A DNA stretch of 47,825 nt, from NCBI GenBank assembly GCA_003133545.1, contig PKYA01000122.1:9942-57766 (forward strand), in the 5' to 3' direction. Positions 4,260-25,436 of this stretch are shown here, in pieces. Under the pieces are notes generated by a model. It was not told the DNA's origin. It was given only the letters and a program-made list of their open reading frames with translations, and did not search any database. Both the position numbers and the translations under genes were made by a program. This DNA is from Acidimicrobiaceae bacterium (GTDB taxonomy: Bacteria; Actinomycetota; Acidimicrobiia; Acidimicrobiales; RAAP-2). Position 1 is the first letter of the stretch, and every line of letters starts with the position of its first letter.

Positions 4260-5582
4260 ATGGCTGAGGTGACCCTGTACCTGCGCGGCGGCACCGTCGT
4301 GACACCCGAAGGCACCCGGCGCCTCGACGTGGCGGTCGGGGACGGCACCGTGGTGGCGTTGGCGGAGTCCATCGATCCCCCCACGGGTGCCCTTGTGCTC
4401 GATGCGCGCGGCTGCCTCATCGGCCCCGGCCTCGTGGACCTGCACACGCACCTGCGCCAGCCCGGGCGCGAGGAGGCCGAGACCGTCGAGAGCGGGGCAC
4501 GGGCCGCTGCGCTCGGGGGGTACACCGCCGTGCTCGCCATGCCGAACACCGAGCCGGCTATCGACTCGGCCGGCGTCGCCCGGGACGTGCTCGCCCTGGG
4601 TCGCACCGCGCCGGCCGAGGTGGCCGTGGCGGGGGCCATCACCGTGGGCCGCGCCGGCCGGGCGCTCGCCCCGCTGGGCGAGCTGGCCGAACTCGGCGTG
4701 CGCATCTTCACCGACGACGGGGCCGGTGTGCAGGACGGCGCGCTGATGCGGCGGGCGCTCGATTACGCCAAGGGCATCGGCGTCACCCTGGCACAGCACT
4801 GCGAGGACGAGAACCTGGCCGCCGGCGGGGCCATGCACGAGGGAGGCTGGTCGAGCCGGCTGGGCCTGCCCGGCATCCCGGCCGCGGCAGAGGAGTCGAT
4901 GGTGGCGCGCGACATCCAGCTCGTGCGCCTCACCGGTGCGCCGGTGCACTTCTTGCACCTTTCGACAGCCGGCTCGGTGGAGCTGGTGCGACTGGCGAAG
5001 GCGGAAGGCCTGCCGGTCACCGCCGAAGCGGCGCCGCACCACATGCTGTTGACCCACGCCGAGGTGGAGGGGTACGACCCGGTCTTCAAGGTGAACCCGC
5101 CGCTGCGCGCCGAGACCGATGTGGCGGCGGTGATCGCCGGACTGTGCGACGGGACCATCGACGCCGTGGCCACCGATCACGCGCCCCACGCCCCCGAGGC
5201 CAAGGACGTCCCGTTCGACCAGGCCCCACCGGGGATGCTCGGGCTGCAGACGGCGCTGCCCCTGGCGTGGCAGGTGCTCTCGCCGACGCTGCGGCCGGAG
5301 CGGATCTTCGCGCTCATGAGCGCGCAGCCCGCCGCCATCGCCGGTCTCACCCTCAGCGACGCGCGCCGCGCCGGGCACAGCGCGCACGGAGGGCCGGTCG
5401 AGGTCGGTGCCGCCGCCAACCTCTGCGTCTTCGATCCGTTGGCCTCGACCGTGGTGGAGGTGGCACGCCTGGCCAGCCGGAGCCGCAACACGCCCTTCGC
5501 CGGGAGGACCTTCACCGGTGCCGTGCGCCACACGATCCTGCGGGGCGAACCGGTGGTTATCGACGCCGTGGCGCAGCGATGA
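4260..5582 (+). CDS. pyrC: Dihydroorotase
   Basis: PyrC closes carbamoyl-aspartate to dihydroorotate. The product (about 440 residues) is an amidohydrolase of the long bacterial dihydroorotase class. Metal ligands are visible as 'DLHTHLRQPG' near residue 60, 'FTDDG' near 150, 'HCED' near 180, 'HLST' near 235 and 'ATDHAPH' near 305. ATG 4260 gives the usual short N-terminus; an in-frame GTG at 4248 would add four residues. It lies 24 bases after pyrB, and its TGA overlaps the ATG of carA, keeping the operon tightly coupled. Confidence 0.96.
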   Translation: MAEVTLYLRGGTVVTPEGTRRLDVAVGDGTVVALAESIDPPTGALVLDARGCLIGPGLVDLHTHLRQPGREEAETVESGARAAALGGYTAVLAMPNTEPAIDSAGVARDVLALGRTAPAEVAVAGAITVGRAGRALAPLGELAELGVRIFTDDGAGVQDGALMRRALDYAKGIGVTLAQHCEDENLAAGGAMHEGGWSSRLGLPGIPAAAEESMVARDIQLVRLTGAPVHFLHLSTAGSVELVRLAKAEGLPVTAEAAPHHMLLTHAEVEGYDPVFKVNPPLRAETDVAAVIAGLCDGTIDAVATDHAPHAPEAKDVPFDQAPPGMLGLQTALPLAWQVLSPTLRPERIFALMSAQPAAIAGLTLSDARRAGHSAHGGPVEVGAAANLCVFDPLASTVVEVARLASRSRNTPFAGRTFTGAVRHTILRGEPVVIDAVAQR

Positions 5583-6679
5583 GCCCGCCGGAGCGTGCAC
5601 CGGCCCTGTTGGTGACCGCCGATGGCGTGGTCTTCGCCGGCGAGGCGGCTGGAGCGTCGCGACCGATCGCCACGGGCGAGCTCGTCTTCAACACCGCCAT
5701 GAGCGGCTACCAGGAGGTCATCACCGACCCTTCCTACGCCGGGCAGGTCGTGGCGTTCACCAACACCCACATCGGTAACTACGGCACCAACGGCGACGAC
5801 GACGAGGCGCCGCGGCCCCGCTGCGAGGGCGTCGTCGTGCGAGATCTCACCGCCGTCCCCTCGAACTGGAGGTCGACCGAGGGACTCGAGGCCTTTCTCG
5901 TGCGCCATGGCTTGGCGGCCATCACCGGGGTCGACACGCGGCGGCTGACGCGCCACCTGCGCCGGGTCGGCGCCATTCCCTGTGCCTTCGGGACGGCGCC
6001 CGAGGCCGAGCTGCGCGCGGCGGCGGCGGCGGCGCCGACGACGGATGGCCTCGATCTGGTCTCCGGTGTCACCGCCACCACCACGTCGACGTACGGGGAC
6101 GGCCCGCTGCGGATCGTGGCGTTCGATTTCGGGGTCAAGGCCACCATGGTGCGCCGGCTGGCCGCGCTGGGCCGGGTCACGGTGGTGCCGGCCGGCACCA
6201 CGGCCGCCGAGGTGCGCGCCCTCGAGCCCGACGGGGTCTTCCTCTCCAACGGCCCCGGTGACCCGGCCGCGCTCAGCGGGCCGCGCGACACCATCGCCGA
6301 ACTGCTGGGCCGGGTCCCCATCTTCGGGATCTGCCTGGGCCATCAACTGCTGGCCGCCGCGCTGGGCGGCACCACCTACAAGCTGCCCTTCGGGCACCAC
6401 GGCGCCAACCATCCGGTGCAGCGGCTGGACACCGGGGTGGTCGAGATCACCAGCCAGAACCACAACTACGCCGTGGCCGCCGGTTCGGTGCCCGATACCG
6501 AGGTGACCCACGTCAACCTCAACGACGGTGTGATCGAGGGCATCCGCTCGCGCCGGGTGCCGGCGTTCTCGGTGCAGTACCACCCGGAGGCGGCGCCGGG
6601 CCCTCACGATGCCCGCTACCTCTTCGCTGCATTCAATGCGCTGATGCAGCGCACCGCCACGAGCGCCGGACAGCGCTGA
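5579..6679 (+). CDS. carA: Carbamoyl phosphate synthase small (glutaminase) subunit
   Basis: CarA hydrolyses glutamine and channels ammonia to CarB. The product has 366 residues. The N-terminal CPSase small-chain domain includes '[20 protein letters not shown]' (residues about 38-57), and the C-terminal class I amidotransferase domain has the nucleophile cysteine in '[16 protein letters not shown]' and the His/Glu pair in '[10 protein letters not shown]'. ATG 5579 overlaps the pyrC stop (ATGA). It is followed after 25 bases by carB. All expected catalytic residues are present. Confidence 0.97.
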
Positions 6680-20888: not shown

Positions 20889-20917
20889 TTGCCTCCGGGG
20901 CGATCCTGCCTTAGGGT
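20889..20917 (+). promoter_or_regulatory. Promoter of the dioxygenase/ATP-grasp operon
   Basis: TTGCCT (-35, 20889-20894), a 17-base spacer and TAGGGT (-10, 20912-20917). Transcription would start near 20924, leaving a leader of about 23 bases that carries GGGGG (20936-20940) six bases before ATG 20947. Confidence 0.65.
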
Positions 20918-20931
20918 GACCCCAAAGTCAC
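20916..20931 (+). promoter_or_regulatory. Inverted repeat GTGAC-N6-GTCAC at the transcription start (candidate operator)
   Basis: GTGAC 20916-20920 and GTCAC 20927-20931 are exact inverted copies spaced by six bases. They overlap the -10 end and the expected start site. The geometry suits a dimeric repressor, although a short mRNA hairpin is also possible. Confidence 0.45.
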
Positions 20932-20946
20932 AGGCGGGGGACAGCG

Positions 20947-22179
20947 ATGTCACAGGGAGTGAGCCACGCCACGGGCGAGACGCGCGCGGCGGGTGAGACG
21001 TTGACGGCGGAGGCGTTGATGGTGCCGTACGTGGACCTGGTGTCGGATGCGGCCGAGCAGGCCCCGGCGGGATGCCCCATGGCCGCGGCACCCGACGAAG
21101 TGGCCGAGGACATCCTCTATTACTGGGACTATCTCCATCTCGATGCGCTGCTCAGCGCGCAGACCCCGAAGAGCGCGGAGCGTGGCGGGCTCGTCCACGA
21201 CGAGATCTTCTTCATCACGGTGCACCAGACCTACGAGCTGTGGTTCAAGCAGATTCTGGTGGAGCTCGACTCCGTGATGACGATCATGAGCGAGGAGACG
21301 GTGGCCGAGCGCGAGCTGCGGACCGTCTTGGCCCGGCTTCAGCGCATCAACGAGATACAGCGCCTCATGGTGGCCCAGATGGGCGTGCTGGAGACCTTGA
21401 CGCCGCTCGACTTCCTCGATTTCCGGGCCCTGCTCCTTCCCGCCTCGGGTTTCCAGAGCGTGCAGTTCCGCCTGATAGAGAACAAGTTCGGCCTGCTGGA
21501 ACGGGACCGCGTGAAGGTCGAGGGGCACAACTACGCCGCCACCCTCCGAGGGGACCACGCCGCGCTCGTCTCCATGTCCGAGCGGGCGCCGTCGTTGTTC
21601 GACTACGTCGAGCGCTGGTTGGCCCGGGCGCCGTTCCTGCACGCCGACGAGTTCGACTTCATCGCCCGCTACCGCCAGGCAGCCACGGAAATGCACGCGG
21701 CCGGACGGGCCAAGATCGCGGGGAATCAGAACCTGGACGCGCAAACCCGGGACACGCAGCTGGCGGCGTTCGAGCGGAGCCTCCGTAAGTTCGAAGCCGT
21801 GTTCGACAGGGAGACCTGGGAGGAGGACGTGCGGGAGGGCACACGGCGCTTCTCCCACGAAGCCTTCACGGCGGCCCTCTTCATAAACCTCTATCGGGAT
21901 GAGCCGATGCTGCACATGCCGTTTCTCATCTTGACGGCTCTGGTCGACATCGATGAACAGTTGACGCTGTGGCGCGAGCGGCACGCACTCATGGCCCACC
22001 GCATGCTGGGCCGGCTCACCGGCACCGCCGGCAGCGGCTACGCCTACCTGGACGAGACGGCCAAGCGCTACACGCCGTTCAAGGACCTCTTCGACGTGTC
22101 CACCTACCTCCTGCCGCACTCGGCCCTCCCTCCGTTGCCGAGCGCGCTGTTCGACCGTCGCGAGCTCGCGCTCTTGTAG
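20947..22179 (+). CDS. Tryptophan 2,3-dioxygenase family protein
   Basis: The family opens the indole ring of tryptophan with O2 and haem, giving N-formylkynurenine. This 410-residue protein is closer in length to animal enzymes (about 406) than to the usual bacterial ones (about 280-300). Key residues are in place: Phe89 and His93 in 'FFITVHQTYELWFKQIL', Arg175 in 'GFQSVQFRLIENK', the proximal haem ligand His346 in 'LWRERHALMAHRMLG', and Thr360 in the 'TGTAGSGY' loop, which is about one residue shorter than the usual 'GTGGSSGY'. The first 50 residues are extra. ATG 20947 has a good site and promoter. The stop overlaps the start of an ATP-grasp ligase. No kynurenine formamidase or kynureninase is nearby, so a plain catabolic role is not indicated. 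Substrate is inferred. Confidence 0.85.
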   Translation: MSQGVSHATGETRAAGETLTAEALMVPYVDLVSDAAEQAPAGCPMAAAPDEVAEDILYYWDYLHLDALLSAQTPKSAERGGLVHDEIFFITVHQTYELWFKQILVELDSVMTIMSEETVAERELRTVLARLQRINEIQRLMVAQMGVLETLTPLDFLDFRALLLPASGFQSVQFRLIENKFGLLERDRVKVEGHNYAATLRGDHAALVSMSERAPSLFDYVERWLARAPFLHADEFDFIARYRQAATEMHAAGRAKIAGNQNLDAQTRDTQLAAFERSLRKFEAVFDRETWEEDVREGTRRFSHEAFTAALFINLYRDEPMLHMPFLILTALVDIDEQLTLWRERHALMAHRMLGRLTGTAGSGYAYLDETAKRYTPFKDLFDVSTYLLPHSALPPLPSALFDRRELALL

Positions 22180-23465
22180 TGCACAGCCTGCCCGAGACCC
22201 GCGACGACGCGGGAGAGCATCGCCCGCTCTTGGCCATCGTCTACGGAGACGGGTCGACGTCGGCGATGGTGCTCGCGGAGGCGGCCGCTCCCGTGTGCGA
22301 CATCGTGTGGGTGGTCGACTCGGACCGCACGAGCCAGAAGTGGATGCTCCGCCTGGTGCGCAAGTTGGGCCAGACGCTCGATATCGCGTCCATGTCAGAG
22401 GAGGAAGCGGCCGCGGCGCTCGGGTTGTTGCGACCCGACGGCATCGTCGCCTACGGCGAAGTACAGCTCGAAACCGCATCGGTCCTGGCGACGCGGCTGG
22501 GACTCGACTACCACAACCCCACCGTCGCCGGTCGTCTGCGCGACAAGGTGCGCCAGCGCCAGGCGCTGGCCGACGGCGGACTGCCGGTGCCGCGGTGCGT
22601 CGTCGTGCCGTCGCCGGCCCGCGAGGACGAGATCGACGCCCTGATCGACGGCGTCACCTTCCCGGTGGTGCTCAAGCCCCGCCACGGCGCGGCCAGCCGG
22701 GAGACCCACCTGGTCACCGACGGCGTGCACCTGCGGAAGCTCATCGACGAGCTGCCGAGCGGCGGCGCCGAGCCGTTCATGGTCGTCGAGGAGTACATGG
22801 CCGGCGCGACGCCTCCGCCCAGCCCGATGTTCTACGACTACGTCTCGGTCGAGAGCGTCGTCGCCCGGGGGCAGATCAGCCATGTGGCGGTGACGGGCCG
22901 GCTCCACCCGGCCGAGCCGTTCCGGGAGACGGGACTGGTCGTCCCGAGCGACTACCCCCCCTCGGTCGTGGCCGACGTGCTGCACGTGGCCAGCGAGGCC
23001 ATAGAAGCCCTCGGCGTCCGTACCGGCTGCCTGCACACCGAGATCAAGATGACCGACAAGGGCCTGCGTGTCCTCGAGGTCAACGGTCGCCTCGGCGGCT
23101 TCGTGCCCGAGGTGGTCGGCCGGGCCGCCCCCGGCGTCAACCTCTACGAGATCTCCCAGCGGGTGGCGGTGGGCGAGCAGGTGACCTTCGACGGGCCGGT
23201 CCCCACGGAGCATGTGGGCTACGTCGTAGTCCGCCAACCCCCGCAGTGGGCGCGGCGGGTGACCGGGGTCGAAGGGCTCGACCGCGTCGCCTCCTACCCC
23301 GGTGTGGATGCGGTGTCGCTCGCGCGGCCACCGGGCGAAGAGGTCGACTGGCGGCGCGGCAGCCATGAATACGTCTTCTCCGTGCTGGGCGCGGCGGCGG
23401 ACTACGAGGGCGTGCAGGCGCTGGAGGAATTCATCGACAACGAAGTCACGGTTTCCTACGAGTAG
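22179..23465 (+). CDS. ATP-grasp ligase of unknown substrate, coupled to the dioxygenase
   Basis: This 428-residue protein resembles carboxylate-amine ligases such as L-amino-acid ligases. After an N-terminal Rossmann-like part, the ATP-grasp core shows 'FPVVLKPRHGAAS' with Lys166, the adenine-site 'MVVEEYMAG' with Glu204/205, and metal ligands Glu288 ('HTEIK') and Glu300/Asn302 ('VLEVNGRLGG'). The 'NGRLGGFVPEVV' run is typical of peptide-bond-forming family members. GTG 22179 shares its first base with the TAG of the dioxygenase gene, so the pair is almost certainly co-translated. Working together, they could form and then conjugate a tryptophan-derived acid. That product is an inference and no named pathway fits. 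Confidence 0.8.
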   Translation: MHSLPETRDDAGEHRPLLAIVYGDGSTSAMVLAEAAAPVCDIVWVVDSDRTSQKWMLRLVRKLGQTLDIASMSEEEAAAALGLLRPDGIVAYGEVQLETASVLATRLGLDYHNPTVAGRLRDKVRQRQALADGGLPVPRCVVVPSPAREDEIDALIDGVTFPVVLKPRHGAASRETHLVTDGVHLRKLIDELPSGGAEPFMVVEEYMAGATPPPSPMFYDYVSVESVVARGQISHVAVTGRLHPAEPFRETGLVVPSDYPPSVVADVLHVASEAIEALGVRTGCLHTEIKMTDKGLRVLEVNGRLGGFVPEVVGRAAPGVNLYEISQRVAVGEQVTFDGPVPTEHVGYVVVRQPPQWARRVTGVEGLDRVASYPGVDAVSLARPPGEEVDWRRGSHEYVFSVLGAAADYEGVQALEEFIDNEVTVSYE

Positions 23466-23537: not shown

Positions 23538-24647
23538 GTGAAGCGAGCCGTTGTGGCCGGAGCGGGAGTGCTCGGAACCTGGCACGCGCTCGAGCTGTGC
23601 CGCGCCGGGTATGCCGTGCAGCACCTCGAGGCCAATGCCGCCCCTCAGGGGGCGTCGGTGCGCAACTTCGGCCTCCTCTGGGTGAGCGGACGTCGTTCGG
23701 GCGCCGAGCTCGATGCTGCACAGCGCGCCCGGCACCGCTGGGAAGAGGTCGGGAACGACATCGCCGGGATCGGGTTCCGGGCGACGGGTTCGTTGACGGT
23801 GGCGTGCACCCCCGGCGAACGCAAGGTGATGGAGGAGTTCGCCGCCCACGCCGATGCCGCGGCCCGCGGCATCACCTACGTCGAGCCCGAAGAACTGCGC
23901 GCGCGGAACCCCGCGGTGCAAGGGGACGTCACCGGCGCCCTGCACTGCGTGCACGACGCGGTGGTCGAGCCCCGCCGCGCTCTCGGCGCACTGCGCGACT
24001 ATCTCTCGGCGCGAGGCTCCTACACCTACCACCCCGGTCGCACTGTCGTCGGCATAGAGGAACGCGCCCTCATCGACGTGACGGGCACCCGCTGGGAAGC
24101 CGATCTGGTCGTTGTGGCCACCGGGTCGGCCTTCGACAGCCTCCCGGGCACCGAGCGGGTGGCGGCGCGCCTGCGCCGGGTGCGCCTCCAGATGCTCGAG
24201 ACCGAGCGGTTCGCCCGGACCGTCACCACGGCCCTGGCCGATGCCGACACCTTGCGCTACTACCCGGCCTATGCAGTGGTCCCGCTGGATGCCCTCGGCG
24301 CGCAGGGGCCGGTGGCGGCGGTCCATCACCTGCAGCTGCTTTTGGTCCAGCGGGCCGACGGCGGGCTCACCATCGGCGACACCCACGCCTACGACGAGCC
24401 GTTCGACTTCGCGTTGGACGAGCAGCCCTCCACCGAACTGCTGGCCCGCGCCGAGAGGCTGCTGGGCGTCCCCCTGCCCCCCGTCGCCCGCCGGTGGGAG
24501 GGCGTGTACGCCCAGTGCATTGACGGCGACGTGTGCGCACGGGAGGAACTGAGCCCCGGCGTATGGATGGTCACCGGGCCGGGGGGCCGGGGCATGACCT
24601 GCGCGCCGGCCATCGCGGCCGACACGTTGCGGCTCGCGGGCGCATGA
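23538..24647 (+). CDS. FAD-dependent amine oxidoreductase of the aminophosphonate type (TIGR03364/PbfD-like)
   Basis: This 369-residue DAO-family flavoprotein begins with the dinucleotide motif 'GAGVLG' (residues 8-13). The 'GASVRNFGLLWVSGR' segment near residues 35-50 and the C-terminal 'MVTGPGGRGMTCAPAIA' are typical of the FAD oxidoreductase family found next to phosphonatase-like HAD enzymes. Characterised relatives (PbfD) oxidatively remove the amine from 2-aminoethylphosphonate derivatives such as N-methyl or 1-hydroxy forms, giving phosphonoacetaldehyde-type products. The next gene is exactly such a HAD enzyme, overlapping by ATGA, which strongly supports the call. No phosphonate transporter is present in the window. 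Exact substrate is unknown. Confidence 0.85.
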   Translation: MKRAVVAGAGVLGTWHALELCRAGYAVQHLEANAAPQGASVRNFGLLWVSGRRSGAELDAAQRARHRWEEVGNDIAGIGFRATGSLTVACTPGERKVMEEFAAHADAAARGITYVEPEELRARNPAVQGDVTGALHCVHDAVVEPRRALGALRDYLSARGSYTYHPGRTVVGIEERALIDVTGTRWEADLVVVATGSAFDSLPGTERVAARLRRVRLQMLETERFARTVTTALADADTLRYYPAYAVVPLDALGAQGPVAAVHHLQLLLVQRADGGLTIGDTHAYDEPFDFALDEQPSTELLARAERLLGVPLPPVARRWEGVYAQCIDGDVCAREELSPGVWMVTGPGGRGMTCAPAIAADTLRLAGA

Positions 24648-25321
24648 TCGGCTCCTTCGCATTGGTCGTCCTCGACATGGCCGGGACCACCGTCCGTGAC
24701 GACGGCGCCGTGGACGAGGCGTTCACGGCGGCCCTCACGTCGGCCGGCGTCGCGCCGGGCAGCCCGCGCTTCGATGCCGCGCGCGTCTACGTGCGCGACA
24801 CGATGGGCCAGTCCAAGTCCGACGTCTTTGCGGCGCTGCTGGGGCCCGAAGAGGCGGGGCAGGCCACGGAGGACTTCGCGGGCGCCTACGAGCGCATCGT
24901 GGCCGAAGGGCGGGTGGCGCCGATCGACGGGGCCCTCGAGGTGTTCCGCACGCTGCGCGCCCACGGAGTCGGGGTCTGCCTGACCACCGGGTTCGCCCCG
25001 CGCACCCGTGACGCGTTGCTGGCGGCGCTGGGCTGGGGCGGCGAGATCGACCTGGCGCTCTCCCCGGCCGACTGCGGCCGCGGCCGACCGGAGCCCGACA
25101 TGATCTTCGGCGCCATGAAGGGCCTCGGCGTCGCCGACGCCGGGGCGGTGGCGGTGGTGGGGGACACCGTCAGCGACCTCGAAGCCGGGACCCGTGCCGG
25201 GGCCCGGGCCGTCGTGGGCGTGCTCAGCGGGGCCCACGACAGGGCCACCCTGCAAAGCGCGCCGCACACCGATCTCATCGACGACGTGACACAGCTGATG
25301 GGAGTTCTGACCCGCTCCTGA
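24644..25321 (+). CDS. Phosphonatase-like HAD hydrolase (PhnX-like, TIGR03351 type)
   Basis: The family cleaves the C-P bond of phosphonoacetaldehyde-like substrates. In this 225-residue protein the nucleophile motif is 'LDMAGTTV' with Asp11 (the DxAGT variant that marks phosphonatases). The cap-domain 'MGQSK' places Lys58 where PhnX has its Schiff-base lysine ('MGLLK'). 'GRGRPEPDMIF' has arginine in place of the general HAD lysine, and 'VVGDTVSDLEAG' supplies the magnesium-site aspartates. ATG 24644 overlaps the stop of the FAD oxidase. PhnW transaminase is absent, so the oxidase probably supplies the aldehyde. Confidence 0.87.
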   Translation: MIGSFALVVLDMAGTTVRDDGAVDEAFTAALTSAGVAPGSPRFDAARVYVRDTMGQSKSDVFAALLGPEEAGQATEDFAGAYERIVAEGRVAPIDGALEVFRTLRAHGVGVCLTTGFAPRTRDALLAALGWGGEIDLALSPADCGRGRPEPDMIFGAMKGLGVADAGAVAVVGDTVSDLEAGTRAGARAVVGVLSGAHDRATLQSAPHTDLIDDVTQLMGVLTRS

Positions 25322-25342
25322 CCTGCACTTGTCGACAGAAAC

Positions 25343-25356
25343 TGTAACGTGTTCTA
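25343..25356 (+). promoter_or_regulatory. Palindrome TnnAACnnGTTnnA upstream of ribD (candidate TetR-type operator)
   Basis: TGTAACGTGTTCTA matches the form TnnAACnnGTTnnA recognised by KstR-like TetR regulators in Actinobacteria. It overlaps possible -10 boxes (TAACGT 25345-25350, TATTAT 25355-25360) in an AT-richer patch about 80 bases before ribD. Only the match is seen; the regulator is unknown. Confidence 0.35.
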
Positions 25357-25436
25357 TTATTGAGGAGCGGGCGCGCACTCCTACGCCGGAACGGACAACA
25401 ACCAGCCAGATCGGCCCGCCAGATCGGACAGGACCC

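Follow-up and report, generated by a model that had tools for sequence, protein, structure and literature searches.

A tryptophan 2,3-dioxygenase gene overlapping an ATP-grasp ligase gene in Acidimicrobiaceae and a possible route to kynurenine amides

Tryptophan 2,3-dioxygenases (TDOs) encoded in NRPS clusters supply kynurenine, as does DptJ of daptomycin. SerRS-like amino-acid:[carrier-protein] ligase systems are said to have been described by Mocibob et al. in 2010, and we found no description of the biological products of these ligases in the literature searched. In human TDO the active site is covered by the JK loop, of which a threonine binds the ammonium group of the substrate (PMC5071832), and a study of MarE (PMC11904535) linked the choice between mono- and dioxygenation to differences in the JK loop and in the PASG/DATG loop. 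BacD/YwfE, BL00235 and RizA are ligases that couple free amino acids (reviewed in PMC6920838). The literature searched gave nothing relevant on biosynthetic clusters that connect ATP-grasp ligases with a TDO or with kynurenine. Here we describe a TDO gene overlapping an ATP-grasp ligase gene in a stretch of 47,825 nucleotides (the window) from the genome of a soil actinobacterium of the Acidimicrobiaceae.

The gene pair, its genomic sites and its distribution

The features of the locus are given in Table 1. A preliminary description had the two genes sharing base 22179, and the sequence confirms this: the same G belongs to the TAG stop of the TDO and to the GTG start of the ligase. The single strong promoter it proposed for the pair could not be upheld, as a promoter scan reported no sigma-70-like site upstream of the TDO; the table lists a possible weak promoter that falls short of the scan's threshold. 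Rfam gave no match anywhere in the window.

Table 1. Features at the TDO-ligase locus (window coordinates)
Feature	Position	Strand	Description
Possible weak promoter	20889..20917	+	TTGCCT-N17-TAGGGT; 7/12 consensus bases, below scan threshold and unsupported by scan
TDO ORF	20947..22179	+	410 aa; tryptophan 2,3-dioxygenase, long (eukaryote-like) type; PF03301 310 bits
JK-loop codons	22021..22038	+	G359-T360-A361-G362-S363-G364; GTGG-[ST]-x-G changed to GTAG-S-G, one residue shorter
TDO/ligase stop/start overlap	22177..22181	+	TAGTG, from sequence; translational coupling
Ligase ORF	22179..23465	+	428 aa, GTG start; ATP-grasp L-amino-acid-ligase type; ATP-grasp_3, weak LAL_C2
HpnW-like FAD-dependent oxidoreductase	23538..24647	+	TIGR03364, 294.6 bits (cut-off 285.1); 72 nt downstream of ligase
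PhnX-like HAD hydrolase	24644..25321	+	TIGR03351, 216.0 bits, just under cut-off 218.9; ATGA overlap with HpnW-like gene

We found a long TDO in 3 of 150 genomes of the family: the window's own genome (G000), one of the same genus (G045, 73%) and one of another genus (G107, ~60%). The remaining TDO matches in this sample were of the short type where inspected. Among 397 genomes of the order a long TDO at E <= 1e-50 was seen in the own genome and in none of the others. TDO matches on plasmids came to nine records, all below 60% identity, and the record that we inspected (Sagittula) is an ordinary TDO-kynureninase degradation operon. A contig scan with the ligase alignment gave 78 loci, and a TDO stood beside the ligase in the G107 record alone. 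There both genes are intact and overlap by 16 nt, which makes two intact pairs (G000 and G107), all data on the pair coming from draft metagenome-assembled genomes. In G045 most of the ligase is deleted and the TDO reads in frame into its last ~80 residues; the fusion lies at positions 4411-5904 of locus L066, after a deletion of ~1 kb. A search for co-occurrence had been proposed as a check on the preliminary description, and its outcome did not go against that description: the pair recurs, again overlapping, at a different locus in a second genus, which argues for more than chance, but it is very rare and one of its three carriers has lost most of the ligase.

In the TDO tree the three ligase-linked enzymes form one clade with a long stem (support 100/100). 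The ligase tree joins the two intact ligases as sisters (99/95) and places the two ligases of genome G386 next to them (100/100). The two gene trees are congruent and indicate shared inheritance.

The genes rpe and ribD are contiguous in 28 sampled genomes of the family. In G000 the TDO, the ligase, the HpnW-like oxidase and the PhnX-like hydrolase are inserted between them, in G045 the fusion of TDO and ligase tail occupies this place, and in G005, of the same genus, a truncated PhnX-like remnant is found there alone. The HpnW-like and PhnX-like genes (23538-25321) constitute a predicted phosphonate-catabolism pair. Just before ribD, at 25332-25360, lies a sigma-70-like promoter (TCGACA-N17-TATTAT), and a similar sequence can be seen upstream of ribD in G005 and G045. 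The pair of G107 is at an unrelated site, after an SDR gene and adjoining ACP and PPTase genes. At locus L110 an SDR 62% identical to that of G107 precedes a related ligase without any TDO, which would fit a later addition of the TDO to an older SDR-ligase unit.

Active site of the dioxygenase and fold of the ligase

The window TDO belongs to Pfam family PF03301 (Trp_dioxygenase; 310.1 bits, curated cut-off 34.9) and lies outside the short bacterial equivalog TIGR03036, against which it reaches 143 bits where the cut-off is 390.7. Its top PDB matches are eukaryotic TDOs, with human TDO as the best (279 bits). Residues Y59, Y62, F89, H93, F156, R160, H346 and T360 align with human Y42, Y45, F72, H76, F140, R144, H328 and T342, of which R144 is the arginine that binds the substrate carboxylate. 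The haem ligand and the main substrate residues are kept in this alignment. The preliminary description had listed as conserved every haem and substrate residue it could check. This stands for Phe89, His93, His346 and Thr360; its Arg175, however, aligns with human R159, the substrate arginine being Arg160, which is conserved, and the GTGG motif is altered directly after Thr360. Position 175 is histidine in the TDO of G045 (R175H) and is invariant otherwise.

The altered loop, GTAG-S-G, is common to all three ligase-linked TDOs and differs by a Gly-to-Ala change and a deletion of one residue. The pattern GTGG-x-x-G is present in 20/20 other long actinobacterial TDOs and in 27/27 short ones (47/47 in all), although this motif, highly conserved as it is in TDOs, is not a curated family criterion; the human loop reads GTGGSSG. 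Judged from the alignment, the GTAG loop is a derived change confined to the ligase-linked clade, and since both genera have it the change would predate their split or a transfer between them. The PASG loop and Thr360 are both kept, so we would take the loop change to affect how the substrate is handled, not to abolish dioxygenation. The enzyme is a natural TDO with a change in the GTGG loop, the element linked to the difference between MarE and TDO in mono- and dioxygenation.

Structure prediction, proposed earlier for both proteins, succeeded for the ligase, whose AF2 model is confident (pLDDT 93.7, 54 homologues), but not for the TDO, where a two-sequence model was poor (pLDDT 54) and was left unused for the loop. 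The ligase matches ATP-grasp_3 above the Pfam cut-off and LAL_C2 weakly (23.4 bits, E 7e-5; Pfam cut-off 29.4). The nearest PDB fold to its model is that of BacD/YwfE (TMq 0.83), followed by BL00235 and RizA; the top five PDB chains are all BacD and BL00235, and an LAL-like domain order with the ATP-grasp fold is present. Residues K123, K166, E204, E225, E288, K290, E300, N302, G303 and R304 are invariant across the 54 homologues. The predicted fold, nearest to those dipeptide ligases, supports the earlier suggestion that the ligase has a peptide-bond-forming look. We considered a call on specificity from F308, at the position of BacD W332, and gave it up because phenylalanine occurs there in 8 of the 54 homologues and is not specific to the pair. 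On sequence grounds the ligase is a member of an undescribed actinobacterial subfamily.

Neighbourhoods of the ligase and kynurenine metabolism

Many relatives of the ligase, and its sister ligases (57%), sit with genes for an ACP, a PPTase or an amino-acid:[ACP] ligase. We split the ligase loci 51/27 by their neighbourhood, a grouping made in this analysis with flanks of up to 10 kb: on the branch comprising acidimicrobial, mycobacterial and related ligases at least one of these three genes was on the same stretch in 27/51 loci, and at the Streptomyces-like loci in 0/27. Frequent neighbours are genes for MetA-like, O-acetylhomoserine-sulfhydrylase-like, NAD_binding_9, luciferase-like monooxygenase and exosortase-type hydrolase proteins, and several relatives stand beside genes for amino-acid-forming or amino-acid-modifying enzymes (MetA-like, O-acetylhomoserine-sulfhydrylase-like, threonine-dehydratase-like). 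One cluster, of the ATP-grasp ligase with MetA-like, O-acetylhomoserine-sulfhydrylase-like and NAD_binding_9 genes, is common to mycobacteria and Acidimicrobiia, with an ACP and mostly a PPTase nearby; it is seen in Mycobacterium (L074-L077, L079, L101, L119) and on contig C148 of the window genome (L054). Another recurrent cluster brings together the ATP-grasp ligase, an NF005480-type ACP, an AcpS-like PPTase and an NF005479 protein (L087, L096, L098, L100, L106, L107, L109, L111, L116 and others), in L087 with acyl-CoA-dehydrogenase-like genes as well. From its gene content this cluster might be a system, not described so far, that assembles amino acids without an NRPS. An uncharacterised ligase subfamily stands beside amino-acid:[carrier-protein] ligases in acidimicrobia and mycobacteria.

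The ACP that adjoins the pair in G107 is of NF005480 type (100.5 bits, cut-off 72). Around the pair in the window no carrier-protein gene was recognised; contig C148 of the same genome encodes another two paralogues of the ligase, one of them with an ACP and a PPTase. The amino-acid:[ACP] ligase NF005479 is present in G386 and G045; neither G000 (84% complete) nor G107 yielded a match.

Formamidase, kynureninase and transporter genes had been noted as absent, and for the neighbourhood of the pair this is right. Genome-wide, no kynureninase was found in G000 or in G045, and a candidate alpha/beta-hydrolase formamidase of G000 is encoded on another contig. It is a 49% homologue of an alpha/beta hydrolase whose gene converges on the pair in G107; this G107 hydrolase resembles hydrolases beside TDO in the actinobacterial loci L168 and L170 (L170 appears to have a kynureninase too) and is a candidate arylformamidase. 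G107 does have a kynureninase. In 27/27 of its relatives checked a short TDO overlaps the kynureninase gene; in G107 this TDO is deleted except for its last codons, which overlap the kynureninase start (L197, 7160-7242). We did not accept this loss as proof that the ligase-linked TDO feeds the kynureninase, as several relatives keep a kynureninase with no TDO adjacent.

Possible functions of the pair and comparison with known systems

The reading that we favour, with a probability of roughly 0.4, is that the pair might be a co-translated two-enzyme route in which tryptophan is converted to N-formylkynurenine or kynurenine and the ligase then forms an amide from it. It draws on the intact overlapping pair in two genera at unrelated sites, on the agreement of the two gene trees, on the predicted ligase fold nearest to BacD, BL00235 and RizA, and on the finding of no kynureninase in the window genome at its 84% completeness. 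Judged by the family it belongs to and by its conserved active-site residues, the haem TDO would oxidise L-Trp or a close derivative to N-formylkynurenine under its shortened GTAG loop, and a hydrolase, unlinked or adjacent such as the candidate beside the G107 pair or its homologue in G000, may then deformylate the product to kynurenine. The ligase, to go by fold and family, would activate a carboxylate as acyl phosphate for coupling with an amine, and the product would be an aminoacyl-kynurenine or a dipeptide that contains kynurenine; in its relatives, and perhaps in G000, the partner may be an amino acid held on a small carrier protein. It counts against this route that the intact pairs are only two, that the other 77 of the 78 scanned ligase loci have no TDO nearby and that NF005479 is missing from what was found in G000 and G107. 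The altered JK loop could also mean a changed or weakened TDO activity, and in G107 the kynureninase may simply degrade the kynurenine.

That last point leads to the most serious competitor, in which the two genes are linked but passenger-like, the ligase using unrelated substrates and the TDO serving ordinary Trp catabolism. Ligase relatives occur in many contexts without a TDO, and in G107, which lost the short TDO and kept the kynureninase, the ligase-linked TDO could serve catabolism. We nevertheless think it improbable: no kynureninase was found in G000 or G045, and without a shared role for the two enzymes there is no easy account of intact, overlapping genes that recur at two unrelated loci and have trees that agree. 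The order of the enzymes might also be reversed, with the TDO acting on a Trp peptide from the ligase or on Trp tethered to a carrier protein. The JK loop, which lies over the active site and touches the amino group, is shorter in the ligase-linked TDOs alone, and carrier-protein genes adjoin the pair in G107; but the TDO retains Thr360, Arg160, His93 and Phe89, whose human counterparts contact free Trp, peptides are not known to enter the buried TDO pocket and the surroundings of the pair in the window hold no recognised carrier-protein gene. We give this order of events a rather small chance.

Two further explanations start from the island between rpe and ribD, and we regard both as distinctly unlikely, the second marginally more so. 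A horizontally acquired pair that is losing its function would fit the degenerate TDO loop, the contiguity of rpe and ribD elsewhere in the family, the R175H change in G045 and the decay seen in two sister species, G045 with its deleted ligase and G005 with its remnant. Yet both frames are intact in G000 and G107 with invariant catalytic residues, the loop change is common to both genera and so older than their split or a transfer, and the TDO is under purifying selection between G000 and G045 (dN 0.22, dS 0.95, dN/dS ~0.23). Faster TDO evolution in G045 after the loss of the ligase was also considered and dropped, as a relative-rate test did not separate the TDO from the control gene ribD. 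Alternatively, TDO, ligase, HpnW-like oxidase and PhnX-like hydrolase could form a four-gene pathway in G000, acting for example on an aminophosphonate conjugate. They lie closely spaced on the same strand in a single island, and the PhnX-like remnant of G005 is at the same site, but neither G107 nor G045 has HpnW-like or PhnX-like genes next to the pair, and TIGR03364 with TIGR03351 is a recognised pair of its own. The HpnW-like gene shares the island with the pair and probably has a function of its own.

The route to kynurenine amides, if true, would connect kynurenine chemistry with peptide ligation by a free-standing enzyme. A broader proposal, which we put forward only tentatively and consider doubtful, is an NRPS-independent acidimicrobial pathway in which a loop-remodelled TDO feeds an ATP-grasp ligase to give kynurenine amides from amino acids that are possibly carrier-bound, as one member of a wider undescribed family, common with mycobacteria, of amino-acid-making enzyme, ATP-grasp ligase and carrier protein. 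The parts are each of a known kind; the literature searched gave no account of their pairing, of the loop or of the ligase's association with carrier-protein genes.

The closest relative of the window TDO among described enzymes is the human or eukaryotic-type TDO (EC 1.13.11.11), to which it is homologous over its full length and with which it has the haem ligand and main Trp contacts in common, whereas its GTAG loop is one residue shorter than GTGG and its gene is coupled to a ligase and not to a kynureninase. MarE, which forms a 2-oxindole in maremycin biosynthesis, likewise belongs to the TDO superfamily, has a changed JK loop and works in a biosynthetic context. However, MarE has SLGGR and DATG loops and the window TDO keeps PASG, Thr360 and Arg160, so dioxygenation is the safer guess for the latter. 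With BacD/YwfE, BL00235 and RizA the ligase shares the fold and the order of ATP-grasp elements (TMq 0.71-0.83) as well as the catalytic-type E288, E300, N302 and R304, but at 16-18% identity it stands apart in its actinobacterial subfamily. Its relatives resemble the amino-acid:[carrier-protein] ligase systems in their co-location with NF005479, the NF005480 ACP and an AcpS-type PPTase; the difference is the addition of an ATP-grasp ligase and of enzymes that make amino acids, and in G000 the ACP and PPTase are on another contig, with no match to NF005479. Finally, TDOs of NRPS clusters such as DptJ offer an analogy for a TDO that might supply kynurenine as a peptide building block, with an NRPS there and a free-standing ATP-grasp ligase here.
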